A DNA stretch of 64,000 bases from Sphagnum magellanicum (taxonomy: Eukaryota; Streptophyta; Sphagnopsida; Sphagnales; Sphagnaceae): contig CM038919.1 in NCBI GenBank assembly GCA_021904315.1, positions 21,679,666 to 21,743,665 of the forward strand. The letters run 5' to 3'. The position numbers and the translations under genes were made by a program. Shown here piece after piece: positions 23,026-60,439 of the stretch (the first letter of the stretch is position 1; every line of letters starts with the position of its first letter). Under the pieces are notes generated by a model. It did not search any database, was not told where the DNA came from, and was given only the letters and a program-made list of their open reading frames with translations.

Positions 23026-23520
23026 TTACATAGTTGACTTGAGCAAAACACTCCTGTTGTCTAGGCAAGAAACTAAGTACAAAGCTATCGCTTTCTGATT
23101 AGCCGAATGCATCAATTCAGGAAGTAAGTTGTACGGTGTCAATTGTTTCCCTAACTGTTGACTAAACTTGCAACGAATGTCATGGTGAGCTGGGCACACT
23201 AACAACAAGTGGTCTTCATCCTCAACAGCTCCTAGGGAACATAGACGACAAATCCTATCTCTCCTCGGGACACTCTCAGGCTTTGCATGCCTGCCACACT
23301 CTACCTCCAAACGATGGTTTGAACATCTGAACCTTGACAAAGATTGCCTGAGCTGAACATTTGTGATCACTTGCAAATACCTCTGATGTGCATATGAGTA
23401 TCCAGATTCTGTTGTACAGCTTGTGTTCATCAGCTGGTATGTACGTAATCTGCTACTTTTGGTTCTGGCCTGTTCACCATAAGTGGATTCTAGGTAAGAA
23501 GCCTGTGCATCTGACCACAC
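23026..23520 (-). CDS. LINE-type reverse transcriptase C-terminal region (zinc-binding), open fragment
   Basis: An uninterrupted 164-aa minus-strand frame. It contains the pattern seen at the C-terminus of non-LTR retrotransposon polymerases: LSRFRCSNHRLEVECGR, then RICRLC, then EDEDHLLLVCPAHHDIR. So there is a C-x2-C followed by H and C, a probable zinc knuckle after the thumb region. I found no reverse transcriptase catalytic core (YxDD) nearby, so this is a fragment or a captured exon. A second minus frame (23051-22815, LCNCRQMDLSGPG at its start) overlaps its end in another frame. The codons are intact, which suggests recent origin or selection. It could be part of a host gene; the starting GTG is not a real start codon. 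Confidence 0.6.
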   Translation of the reverse strand: MWSDAQASYLESTYGEQARTKSSRLRTYQLMNTSCTTESGYSYAHQRYLQVITNVQLRQSLSRFRCSNHRLEVECGRHAKPESVPRRDRICRLCSLGAVEDEDHLLLVCPAHHDIRCKFSQQLGKQLTPYNLLPELMHSANQKAIALYLVSCLDNRSVLLKSTM

Positions 23521-23614
23521 TATTCGAATGTGTTTTGTACCCCAATAAAAAGGGGTGAGGAAAGTAGACAGAGAGGCTCAGGAGGGATTTTGAGAAGAGG
23601 AATTGAAGAATCAC

Positions 23615-28872: not shown

Positions 28873-31800
28873 ATGGAGGAGCGGAACTTAGCTGCTGCTG
28901 GAGGTGTTGTATTCAGTGTGAACGAGCATTGTTATGCGGCATTGGCTGATGGACCGGACGTGGAGGCGAACGGTACTACTGTGGCGGGAAGCTACGTTCA
29001 ACGGGAAGTACTTGGATCGGATGAGAAGACTGAAAGGGGACCGGTTGCTGTGATCGGGAAAAATGGGAGAAGGCTGTTGCTGTTGCTGTCGCTTGGCTGG
29101 ATGACTGCGCTTATGTTGGTGGCAATGAGGAGCTTCGTCTGGGAGGAAGTCTGGAGGAGAAGCGGCGGCGGCGGCAATGCTATTGCGTTGAAGGATCCGC
29201 CTCTTGGTCCTGGAGACCCTGGGGTACCAATTCCTTACCCCAAGACATTGACGGCATACCATTGCAGGCCGGCAAAGAACTGGATCAGTGGTAAGTGATT
29301 CTCCACCGCTGTAGCAGCAGCTTCTTGTGTACATTGTGATAGAGAATGAAGAGCAGATCATGAATATGTTGTCAACAATTGAGTACGAGAGCTGGAGGCA
29401 AAGCAATTGGCTAATCGTGTGTTTGTGTGTCTGTGTGTGAGCTGTGATTTGGACGCCGCGCTTTCTCATCAGATCCTTGTGGTACGCGCTTCCCCTTTGC
29501 ACTCTGATGCTACTTTGTTCAGCCAGCTTCTTCACAAGACAGCATTTCGTGATCAGTCTTTCTGCTTGCTTACTAGTGTATGACTTGTTTTGCTAATAAG
29601 GCAGGTTTTCACATCTGGCTGCCTGCAGGTCCCATGTACTATAAAGGCTACTATCACATCTTCTACCAGTACAATCCTGGGAAGGCAGTTTGGGGCAACA
29701 TCACATGGGGACATGGTGTGTCCAAAGATCTTGTTCAATGGACTTTCATCCACACTGCTCTGCAACCAAACCAGTGGTATGACATCAAGGGAACTTGGTC
29801 AGGCTCTGTCACCATGCGCCCAGATGGTCTTCCTCTAATCTATTACACAGGTTAGCTTGACAGACACCGTGATTCTATCTGAGTGCACATATTGTCTCTA
29901 AAGCTGCAGCATACAAGAAATTTAGGAGGCATGTATTCAACTGATGTCATGAGTTATATTATAGATTGAGGTGTACTTGCAGAGACTTTGCAACTGTTTT
30001 TCAGTACTCTGTTTTCTGGAATTCTGTGTGTGAGTAGGTTCTTCTGCTGCAAATGAGCAGATGGCAAGCTTGGCAGAGCCAAAAGATTCTTCTGATCCTT
30101 TGCTGAGGGAGTGGGTGAAGTATGAAAGGAATCCTATCTTGAGACCACCACCTCAAATTCTAATCACGGATTTCAGAGATCCAACTACTGCATGGAAAGG
30201 ACCTGATGGAGTATATCGGCTGGCAATTGGATCCAAAATTGGAAGATCTGGAGTGGCTCTGCTGTATAAGAGTACTGACCTTTACAATTGGATCTACCAA
30301 GGTGAAGATCACCTTCTTCATGCAGTTGCTGGCACAGGAATGTGGGAATGTGTGGATTTCTACCCTGTTGGACCTCTTGGTGAACCAGCACTTGACATCT
30401 CAGTCAGTGGTCCTGGTATCAAGCATGTCATGAAAGTCAGCTTGGATGATGAACGCCACGACTGGTATGCCTTGGGCTGCTATGACACAGACAGAGATAT
30501 CTTCACTCCAGACAACCCTATCCTTGATGTTGGTATTGGACTGCGCTACAACTACGGGAAGTTCTATGCATCAAAGAGTTTCATTGACCCAGTCAAGCAG
30601 CGGCGAATCATATGGGGTTTTGTTAATGAATCTGATCCTGAAGTTTATGATGTTGAAAAAGGATGGAACACTGTGATGGTAAGCTTTTAGTGGTCTAGAC
30701 TCTGGTGTAATCCATATTTTGGGATCCCTTTGATTTGTAGTATTGGCATAGTAGTTTTAGGTTGCTATCCCATTTTAGAAGATTGAGGAAACTTGTTATC
30801 TGTGACTGACTTGATGTATCTGTGAATACTGGCAGGGGATCCCAAGAACAGTGTGGTATGATAACTACACAAATGCAAATATCATCCAACTACCAGTTGA
30901 TGAAATCAATCAGTTGCGGGGTAGTAAAGTGTCTAAGAAAAATGTACATTTGGCTCCAAGGGCAATAGTGGCTTTTGAAGAGGCTGTTGGTGATCAGGTA
31001 ATCCTCAACTGGTTGATAATTGGCAGTAAGGGTAACCATGGTTGCATTTTTGGTTTTATAATGCCCTGGATAGATTTATGTCTAATCTCTTGTACAGATT
31101 TATTTCTATTTGAAAGTTTTATTATGTATAATTTTCTCTGATGTTGATAATCTGGTGCTTTGAACTATGCAGTTGGACATAGAGGTGGTGTTTGATTACC
31201 CAAATGTGAGTAAAGTGGGTGACAAGGAGAGAAATCTGGATGACCACTTTCACTGTGGACAAGGGGGTGGTGCACAAGCACAAGGAGTTTTTGGACCTTT
31301 TGGGCTACTGCTTTTAGCAGACAAGCAACTTCGAGAGTTATCTGCAGTGTTCTTTTACATTTCACATGTGAAAAATGTAGGTTGGACAACACGGTTTTGT
31401 GTTGACCCAAAAAGGTATGCAATCTCAATTTGTGCATGAGTATGATAGAAGCATTATTGTGAGATGCTGTAGATGACAATAAGATGATGTATCTGACTTG
31501 GAAGACTATAATAAACCTTTCCAGTTTTGATATAAGAGTTATTGTGACATGCTGTAGATGACAAGAAGACAGCTTATCTGACTTGGAGGAATATACGCTT
31601 GTGCAGAGCTTCACTAGCTAAAGGCATTGACACCACCATTTATGGAAGTTTTGTCAATGTTCTTGAAACAGAAGATTTTCTGTCTGCCCGAATATTTGTA
31701 AGTTCTACGCTCTCCAGATCTTTCCACATTGCAAGTAAAATTTGGAATATCAATTCTTCAATGCTATGTGGCTAGCAATGTGGCAAATTGGGGAAATTGG

Positions 31801-32028
31801 CAATGTATACTGCCTCTGAATTGCAGATTTGGAATGCCACAGGTTGATAAAACTGTTATTGAGACATTTGTACAAGGTGGGCGGATGACTGCTAACATGC
31901 GATCTTATCCTACATTGGCATATGGATCAAATGCCCATATGTATTTCTTCAACAATGGGAGCTTGCCTATCAATGTCCGCAGTATTGATGTTTGGCAAAT
32001 GCAATCTGCCAATCTGGTCACTGTTTGA
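28873..32028 (+). CDS. Vacuolar-type GH32 beta-fructofuranosidase (acid invertase-like), variant active site
   Basis: Exons: 28873-29290, 29473-29481, 29629-29850, 30038-30678, 30836-30997, 31173-31414, 31607-31697, 31843-32028; 656 aa, all introns GT-AG. The family hydrolyses sucrose or moves fructosyl groups. The N-terminus looks vacuolar: YAALADG near residue 21 and a signal-anchor helix at about 68-86 after a basic stretch. Catalytic residues are all present: nucleophile D140, D264 in FRDPTTAW and acid/base E320 in WECVDFYPV (Val after WEC is the vacuolar form). Two features are odd: the sucrose-binding box is WISDPCG instead of WMNDPNG, and the RYDYGK motif reads RYNYGK (N388, K391). Normal length for vacuolar invertases. 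28873 is the first in-frame ATG and has G at -3 and +4. A TATATAG lies at 28494-28500, inside a dispersed repeat. The family call is firm; the substrate is not. Confidence 0.96.
29473..29481 (+). other. 9-base mini-exon of the GH32 gene, encoding D-P-C
   Basis: The bases ATCCTTGTG lie between a CAG acceptor and a GTACGC donor. With the G left over from exon 1 and the GT opening exon 3 they read Asp-Pro-Cys-Gly. Plant invertase genes characteristically keep a 9-base mini-exon here, normally coding for Asp-Pro-Asn. Position, length and phase match that exactly, so the exon call is strong although the last codon is TGT (Cys) and not an Asn codon. I saw no other ATCC-type candidate in the interval 29291-29628. 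Skipping this exon would keep the frame but remove nucleophile D140. Confidence 0.9.
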
Positions 32029-32333
32029 TCTGGTTAATTATTTTGCTCAAACCAGGCAAGCATTCTACAGCAAGGTCAACTTTTTTTGCAACAAATTAGA
32101 CAACAAATTTTCCTTCTGATGTTCTGTCTGCAACAAATGTTCAGGAGATAAATTTTGCTAGTACAAAACCCTCACTTTCACATTCTGGGACAGTGACAAC
32201 CATTAGCACTCTGACTCCAAATGTGGGCATGTTTGTTATGCATTCAAATACATATATGAGAGGGAGATTTGGCAGAGGATTGACAAAGGGCTATCTAGTG
32301 ATGGGTTGTTGTGACAGAAGATAAATTGGAAAT

Positions 32334-32533
32334 AGATTGAAAAGGATGTTTTTACAGGATTTTCAAAGTAGTTATTGTAAATGTCCATAAATTGGAGTAA
32401 GAATTGGCAGTAACAAAAGCCAGCCACAGTTGTAGATTGAAAAGGATATATTTACAGGATTTTCAAAGCAGTTACTGTAAATGTCCATAAATTGGAGTAA
32501 GAACTGGCAGTAACAAAAGCCAGCCACAGTTGT
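32334..32533 (+). repeat. Exact 100-base-period tandem duplication downstream of the GH32 gene
   Basis: Copies 32334-32433 and 32434-32533 differ at only a few positions and both end in AAAGCCAGCCACAGTTGT. They begin 306 bases after the stop codon and may fall in the 3' UTR. Confidence 0.9.
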
Positions 32534-32676
32534 ATATGTAAAACACGCCAATAAATTATCTTTCTAAAATTTGTCAAATTACATTTTATGTTTTTCTCCT
32601 CTGTAATTTCCTCTATGTTGTCAATAATATTATACAAAATATATTCTTTCTTCATCAAACAAACTAATGATGAATG

Positions 32677-59895: not shown

Positions 59896-60133
59896 TCATT
59901 GTCTTTATAGAGGGATGGATGAGACTCATCGACAACGACAGGTAGTGTTTGTGCCGGTGCTCTGCCATACAGCCTTTTTTTTTAATTGGCGAAATTTCGC
60001 CTAAAAGCCAAATTAAAAAGTAAACAATTTTGGAGATTTTCAGTCGCCAGAAGTGTGGGGAAAAAGAAATCGCCAGATGTCTATACTTGTTTTTCAACGT
60101 GTAGCCAAAAACGTAGAAGGATGATTAAACATT

Positions 60134-60352
60134 CATATTTGGTTTATAGCCAGATTTTGTCTAAATCTTCATATTTGGCTTATAGCCAGATTTTCTCTAA
60201 ATCTTCATGTTTGGTTTATAGCCATATTTTTGTCTAAATCTTCATATTTGGTTTATAGCCAGATTTTGTCTAAATCTTCATATTTGGTTTATAGCCATAT
60301 TTTTGTCTTAATATTCATATTTAGTTTATAGCCAGATTTTTATCTAAATCTT
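60134..60352 (+). repeat. Tandem array, six copies of a 36-37 base unit
   Basis: Units start at 60134, 60170, 60206, 60243, 60279 and 60316. Each contains TTTGGTTTATAGCCAGATTT followed by a TCTAAATCTT-type end, with one-base length changes. It lies about 1 kb upstream of the HNH-SANT start codon. Confidence 0.9.
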
Positions 60353-60439
60353 CCTATGAAATATCGCCACTTTTTCTACATTTTCCTATGGATGATAGCC
60401 AGTTTGGCTACAAACAAAAATTCCTCAAAAAAGAAAACA

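Follow-up and report, generated by a model that had tools for sequence, protein, structure and literature searches.

Fructan synthesis in higher plants is polyphyletic, its enzymes having been derived from vacuolar invertases, and mutations in the WMNDPNG (sucrose) box and in the W(A/G)W motif are believed to have been key to this evolution of fructosyltransferases (passages of PMC3713406). In Agave tequilana the corresponding part of the box reads DPCG in 6G-FFT-1, DPSG in 6G-FFT-2 and DPNA in 1-SST, and recombinant 6G-FFT-1 produced neokestose (passages of PMC3340406). Here we analyse a GH32 gene of the peat moss Sphagnum magellanicum in which both Asn residues of the box are replaced. It lies in a stretch of 64,000 nucleotides (assembly GCA_021904315.1, contig CM038919.1, positions 21,679,666 to 21,743,665, forward strand), called the window below, to which coordinates refer unless a contig is named. 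Built by hand from the window sequence, the gene (28873-32028, plus strand) has eight exons coding for 656 residues and a stop; all seven introns are of the GT-AG type, and the reading frame is open up to the stop codon, which ends at 32028. Its features are:

28873..29290, plus strand: exon 1, N-terminal region with a hydrophobic segment, ending with W137-I138-S139 and the first base of D140
29074..29130, plus strand: hydrophobic segment, residues 68-86 (19 residues, Kyte-Doolittle mean 1.93), a likely membrane anchor
29281..29290, plus strand: codons of W137, I138 and S139 and the first base of D140, sucrose box
29473..29481, plus strand: 9-base mini-exon ATCCTTGTG, the remainder of D140, P141, C142 and the first base of G143
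29629..29850, plus strand: exon 3
30038..30678, plus strand: exon 4, containing FRDP (D264), WECVD (E320), the hypervariable loop and the WGF motif
30178..30180, plus strand: codon of D264 in FRDP, transition-state stabiliser (motif role from passages of PMC3713406)
30346..30348, plus strand: codon of E320 in WECVD (residues 319-323), acid/base catalyst (motif role from the same passages)
30433..30486, plus strand: hypervariable loop of 18 residues with the D353/R356 couple, a sucrose-donor signature
30613..30621, plus strand: W409-G410-F411, a W(A/G)W motif in which Phe replaces the last Trp
30667..30672, plus strand: N427-T428 of GWNT, at the acceptor-site motif GWA(N/S/T), a fixed difference of the clade described below
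30836..30997, plus strand: exon 5
31173..31414, plus strand: exon 6
31607..31697, plus strand: exon 7
31843..32028, plus strand: exon 8, through the stop codon

Exon 1 passes into intron 1 at AAC TGG ATC AGT G/GTAAGT, the mini-exon (29473-29481) is bounded as CAG/ATCCTTGTG/GTACGC, and exon 3 begins as CAG/GTCCCA at 29629. Splicing of exon 1, the mini-exon and exon 3 yields N-W-I-S-D140-P-C142-G, where the plant invertase box reads WMNDPNG, and the catalytic triad is complete, with D140 in the box, D264 in FRDP and E320 in WECVD. An earlier reading of the sequence only had reported an intact triad with neither Asn next to the nucleophile retained; this is borne out, and the exon boundaries which it gave for the box proved exact when the gene was rebuilt. 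Spliced alignment with the hand-built protein as query returned identical exon ends, a check of consistency and not independent evidence. In the stretch from the end of exon 1 up to 29629, just two 9-base windows are flanked by AG and by GT or GC; read in phase they encode DPC and AAS, so that no alternative 9-base mini-exon coding for DPN is available.

The predicted protein matches PF00251 (288.8 bits) and PF08244 (45.8 bits), both above the curated cut-offs, and no Pfam domain was found at the hydrophobic segment 68-86 at E up to 1. These N- and C-terminal GH32 domains, the WECVD motif and an N-terminal hydrophobic segment, here a candidate for the transmembrane segment of the vacuolar propeptide, are shared with plant vacuolar acid invertases, and the 9-base mini-exon inside the box together with the eight-exon layout is the gene structure of plant acid invertases. 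The gene differs from vacuolar acid invertases in having WISDPCG, WGF and GWNT against WMNDPNG and W(A/G)W, and hence lacks their intact box. Its acid/base motif is of the vacuolar form, WECVD and not WECPD. WECVD as opposed to WECPD is a distinguishing mark of vacuolar invertases; the motif is written as WECPD (WECVD) in a passage of PMC4524927. The eight exons with a 9-base mini-exon also match the Agave layout, as given in passages on that plant.

We compared the protein with 38 PDB sequences of solved structures and inspected five alignments. The best-scoring structure was the 6-SST/6-SFT of Pachysandra terminalis (PDB 3UGF). Like the window gene it has Ser for the first Asn of the box, and its second Asn is also replaced (WMSDPDG); unlike the window gene it has Asp in place of Cys, keeps WAW and carries a D/Q instead of a D/R couple. 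The sequence-only reading had called Cys at the second place unusual. It is less so than supposed, because Agave 6G-FFT-1, according to the passages on it, is a demonstrated fructosyltransferase with the same DPCG, the likeness covering this part of the box. A change from Asn to Cys takes two base changes, with Ser as a natural intermediate. Aspergillus fructosyltransferases with a DPC box are a further candidate precedent. Searching papers for the altered box strings gave, by title and among the matches listed, only unrelated work, the Agave case having been reached by other terms. In bacterial genomes a scan with the single sequence found no relatives of the window protein. Of the 80 bacterial loci kept from a profile scan (of 546 confirmed, among the matches listed), 78 carry the second Asn, and the other two (L054 and L078) read WMNEPHA by eye; the scan patterns left the second place free.

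The altered box is not confined to the window gene. Searching the genome (439 Mb, 31 contigs) with PF00251 gave 71 matches, which were grouped by eye into 41 places including the window gene; of the 40 others, 20 were taken at 8.5 kb and 10 at 1.2 kb. The catalytic part was modelled, at a higher intron cost, in 21 loci (the 20 longer stretches and the window gene). Two models, L027 and L028, contain internal stops, leaving 19 intact loci; the models of L021, with a 14-base exon, and of L025, with a shortened exon 3, may be wrong at those points. A DPC box was found in six of the 21 modelled loci, namely the window gene, L018, L021, L023, L025 and L026, and all six read WISDPCG; the five paralogues lie on contigs C3, C13 and C18. 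The remaining loci have DPN (13 of 21), DTN (L011) or YPN (L028, in which the base before the mini-exon is T). Correspondingly, exon 1 ends in W-I-S in all six DPC genes and in W-M-N or W-M-G in the other 15. The ten 1.2 kb stretches contain DPN in four cases and DTN in two, and a clear mini-exon is absent from four.

One WISDPCG paralogue, L021 (C13:21669551-21670777), shares contig and strand with the window gene, at a distance of 40 kb from it and about 9-10 kb ahead of the window start; the sub-clade to which it belongs lacks the D of the D/R couple. Among the copies outside the WISDPCG group, L011, L033 and L034 (C16, near 15.92, 16.17 and 16.00 Mb, respectively) share the box variant WMGDTNA, in which the Pro beside the nucleophile is changed to Thr, and L011 has an open frame in its model and WEMQD where others have WECVD. 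L027 and L029 to L032 (C2, C4, C7 and C18) are closely similar GH32 pieces with an almost equal exon 3 and, mostly, an open stretch of 260 residues, which a mobile element or segmental duplication may have spread. Eight intact vacuolar-type paralogues (L010, L012 to L017 and L020) have a box ending in DPNA (WMGDPNA in L017) and no D/(R/K) couple.

A tree of 22 rows, in which three plant PDB enzymes joined the 19 intact loci and the broken L027 and L028 were left out, placed the six DPC genes in one clade with support of 100/100, and did the same when the box, WGF and GWNT columns were removed. The clade adjoins 11 other genes of the same genome at a fork supported by 92/87, below the strong mark of the tool, with Pachysandra outside; L019 and L022, which have WECPD, group with the cell-wall invertase and the fructan exohydrolase (FEH). 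Forcing the clade together with the Pachysandra transferase made the tree 3.27 log units worse (approximately unbiased (AU) test, p 0.104). As the joint tree is thus worse yet not rejected, and neither favoured, the altered letters of the clade and of the Pachysandra box have likely, if not provably, converged.

Within the clade the window gene shares 86% identity with L018 and 84% with L023, with ratios of nonsynonymous to synonymous substitution (dN/dS) of 0.13 and 0.16, respectively, and L018 against L023 gave 0.11, so that this inner trio shows purifying selection; the twelve other clade pairs gave 0.26-0.38. The mini-exon is identical to that of the window gene at 9/9 bases in four paralogues and at 8/9 in L018, where the difference is synonymous. 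The introns flanking it align with those of the window gene at 41-55%, compared with 42-45% for shuffled sequence; intron 1 stands 7-12 points above its own shuffles, so that the introns have diverged but are not wholly random. Because the mini-exon has stayed near-identical while the introns beside it diverged, its recurrence goes beyond chance and the altered box is under constraint.

Further changes accompany the box. When the six clade genes were compared with the 13 other intact paralogues and the three plant PDB enzymes, the fixed changes common to the six included R132, I138, C142, N388 (Asp in 16/16 others), N427 and T428; S139 is not counted among them since the Pachysandra enzyme also has Ser there. 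The W(A/G)W motif reads WGF in five and WGY in one of the six, and its last Trp is kept in all 13 other intact paralogues and all three PDB enzymes. Replacement of this Trp by Tyr in an onion invertase reportedly raised transfer, and Asn-to-Ser at the first place of the box is said to have done so in wheat. The box Trp and WSGS are retained in the window gene. GWNT lies at the acceptor motif GWA(N/S/T) (passages of PMC4531242), and at its fourth place the clade has T and the other paralogues S or G. Alteration of WMNDPNG and W(A/G)W is taken as a mark of plant fructosyltransferases, and both are altered here (WISDPCG, WGF); the true transferase 3UGF keeps WAW. The observation on the box is not only correct but stronger than first stated, because a conserved clade carries the box together with a second transferase-linked motif.

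On the donor side, plant GH32 enzymes using sucrose typically have the loop motif KXShDXX(R/K), and enzymes using fructans are without the couple (passages of PMC9366321). The window gene loop, KVSLDDER, fits this motif with D353 and R356. The motif occurs in three of the 19 intact loci, the window gene, L018 and L023, all of them in the WISDPCG clade. In the second sub-clade the couple is replaced by Q/R (L021, L026) or E/R (L025), and the 13 intact genes that fall outside the clade all lack it; the broken L028 is without it and L027 is unreadable there. As controls, the Arabidopsis cell-wall invertase AtcwINV1 was accepted and chicory 1-FEH rejected, as expected; Pachysandra was rejected, its D/Q couple being an exception of a known kind (passages of PMC3713406). 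By this rule sucrose would be used by the WISDPCG trio with the couple rather than by the genes of ordinary appearance; the rule is derived from angiosperms and may not fit mosses. Scored on the table of 18 loop residues given in a passage of PMC4524927, the trio fits 1-SST at 9/9, vacuolar invertase at 8/8 and 6-SFT at 13/16 positions. The window gene thus resembles angiosperm 1-SST at each of the nine conserved positions of the loop, among them the DDER motif named for Agave 1-SST, and is unlike it in the box, which reads DPCG here and, in the passages on Agave, DPNA in 1-SST.

Taken together, the sequences point, tentatively and at a little short of an even chance, to a sucrose-dependent, transfer-prone enzyme of vacuolar type, remodelled on its acceptor side and probably still partly hydrolytic. 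The gene encodes an intact GH32 enzyme of the six-gene clade, probably anchored by its N-terminal hydrophobic segment and presumably vacuolar. Catalysis would follow the standard retaining mechanism, with D140 as nucleophile, E320 as acid/base catalyst and sucrose as fructosyl donor. With the two box Asn replaced by Ser139 and Cys142, W(A/G)W replaced by WGF, and with GWNT, the fructosyl-enzyme may be handed more easily than in an ordinary invertase to a sugar acceptor, most simply a second sucrose. The enzyme would then be a fructosyltransferase that probably retains some hydrolysis, like the 'premature' type known from Pachysandra. The sequence-only reading had proposed that the enzyme may favour transfer or a different donor; its first half gains from the clade-wide changes in W(A/G)W and GWNT and from the Pachysandra and Agave precedents, and its second half loses by the retention of D353/R356.

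Several observations weigh against a transfer-prone enzyme. In Agave 6G-FFT-1, the precedent for DPCG, N and W take the places of the D/R couple (passages on Agave). The loop of the trio fits the vacuolar-invertase pattern (8/8) as well as that of 1-SST (9/9), and the true transferase 3UGF retains WAW and matches the 1-SST pattern at no more than 7/9 positions, for which reasons neither the loop nor W(A/G)W is certain to separate transferase from invertase. The box Trp is kept in the window gene, while W/Y at that place has been implicated in acceptor binding in wheat (passages of PMC4531242). Eight intact genes outside the clade have DPNA, the letters of Agave 1-SST (same Agave passages), and box letters alone hence do not name a function. 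The GH32 proteins of the fungus Ceratocystis have CG, and those of Huntiella CA, at the second Asn-Gly of the box, and are treated as likely active invertases by the authors, according to whom the critical W and N are kept (passages of PMC4672557); the Ceratocystis CG is like that of the window gene, in fungal proteins, and function is poorly predicted by the box on its own. In two Antarctic mosses, analysed with standards for kestose and nystose, neither sugar was detected (passages of PMC4731983). In the open-access literature found, judged by title, start of abstract and passages, no moss fructans, moss fructosyltransferases or moss GH32 enzymes are described.

Much of this would suit an ordinary vacuolar-type acid invertase, the next most likely reading, in which the changes in the box, WGF and GWNT are lineage-specific, functionally mild and kept by co-adaptation. 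The triad, FRDP, WECVD, the box Trp and WSGS are all retained, the D/R couple is present, and the loop agrees with the vacuolar-invertase pattern throughout; the fungal CG and CA proteins treated as invertases (PMC4672557, in the passages above) also speak for this reading. Since the D/(R/K) couple is absent from 16 of the 19 intact loci, the trio may even be the main sucrose users of the genome. Moreover, vacuolar invertases are able to form kestoses at high sucrose (passages of PMC4460310), so that some transfer would not exclude an invertase. An invertase of the ordinary kind is less easily reconciled with two transferase-linked motifs that are altered together and persist through old duplicates, or with the bacterial loci, 78 of 80 of which keep the second Asn, the other two reading WMNEPHA.

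It is unlikely that the enzyme hydrolyses, or transfers from, a different beta-fructofuranoside donor, for instance raffinose-family sugars or microbial fructans. Stachyose, verbascose and galactinol are present in two mosses (passages of PMC4731983), and the sub-clade of L021, L025 and L026, lacking the D of the couple, would count as fructan-type by the published rule. The window gene itself retains D353/R356, and loss of the couple is what marks the fructan-donor type; chicory 1-FEH IIa, a fructan hydrolase, keeps WMNDPNG, and a changed box is therefore no requirement for a fructan donor. The loss of both Asn flanking the nucleophile would suit an invertase homologue of weak activity that serves in regulation or sensing. 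This is very improbable, given that the D/R couple is retained, even if W(A/G)W has lost its last Trp, and that dN/dS over the modelled part is low. A pseudogene, assembly error or mis-splicing artefact is scarcely credible: other GH32 copies of the genome are broken (L027 and L028, with internal stops in their models), but this gene has an open frame over eight exons with GT-AG introns, low dN/dS and the same box in five paralogues on C3, C13 and C18.

A wider proposal may be added, which we regard as doubtful. A land plant outside the flowering plants may have evolved, independently of angiosperms and from one ancient vacuolar invertase duplicate, a two-part fructosyl-transfer system, in which the window gene, L018 and L023 make up a sucrose-donor branch carrying D/R, and L021, L025 and L026 a second branch that lacks the couple. 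This would parallel the pairs of 1-SST with FFT or FEH in fructan plants, with box letters converging on those of Agave and Pachysandra enzymes. A conserved moss clade with the same two motifs altered offers a natural and old test of the residues that turn hydrolysis into transfer, and raises the question of whether such plants make fructosyl-oligosaccharides that are overlooked by the usual sugar profiles. It also makes it inadvisable to name a function from box letters alone.

Elsewhere in the window, a direct tandem duplication of 100 bases (32333-32534; two copies, 95% matches) lies about 300 bases past the stop codon of the gene. On the minus strand at 23026-23577, an open frame of 183 residues with a Cys/His-rich stretch has no Pfam match above cut-off; we take it, as an impression only, to resemble the tail of a retrotransposon polymerase. 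At 60132-60357 there is a tandem array of 6.2 copies of a 36-base unit.
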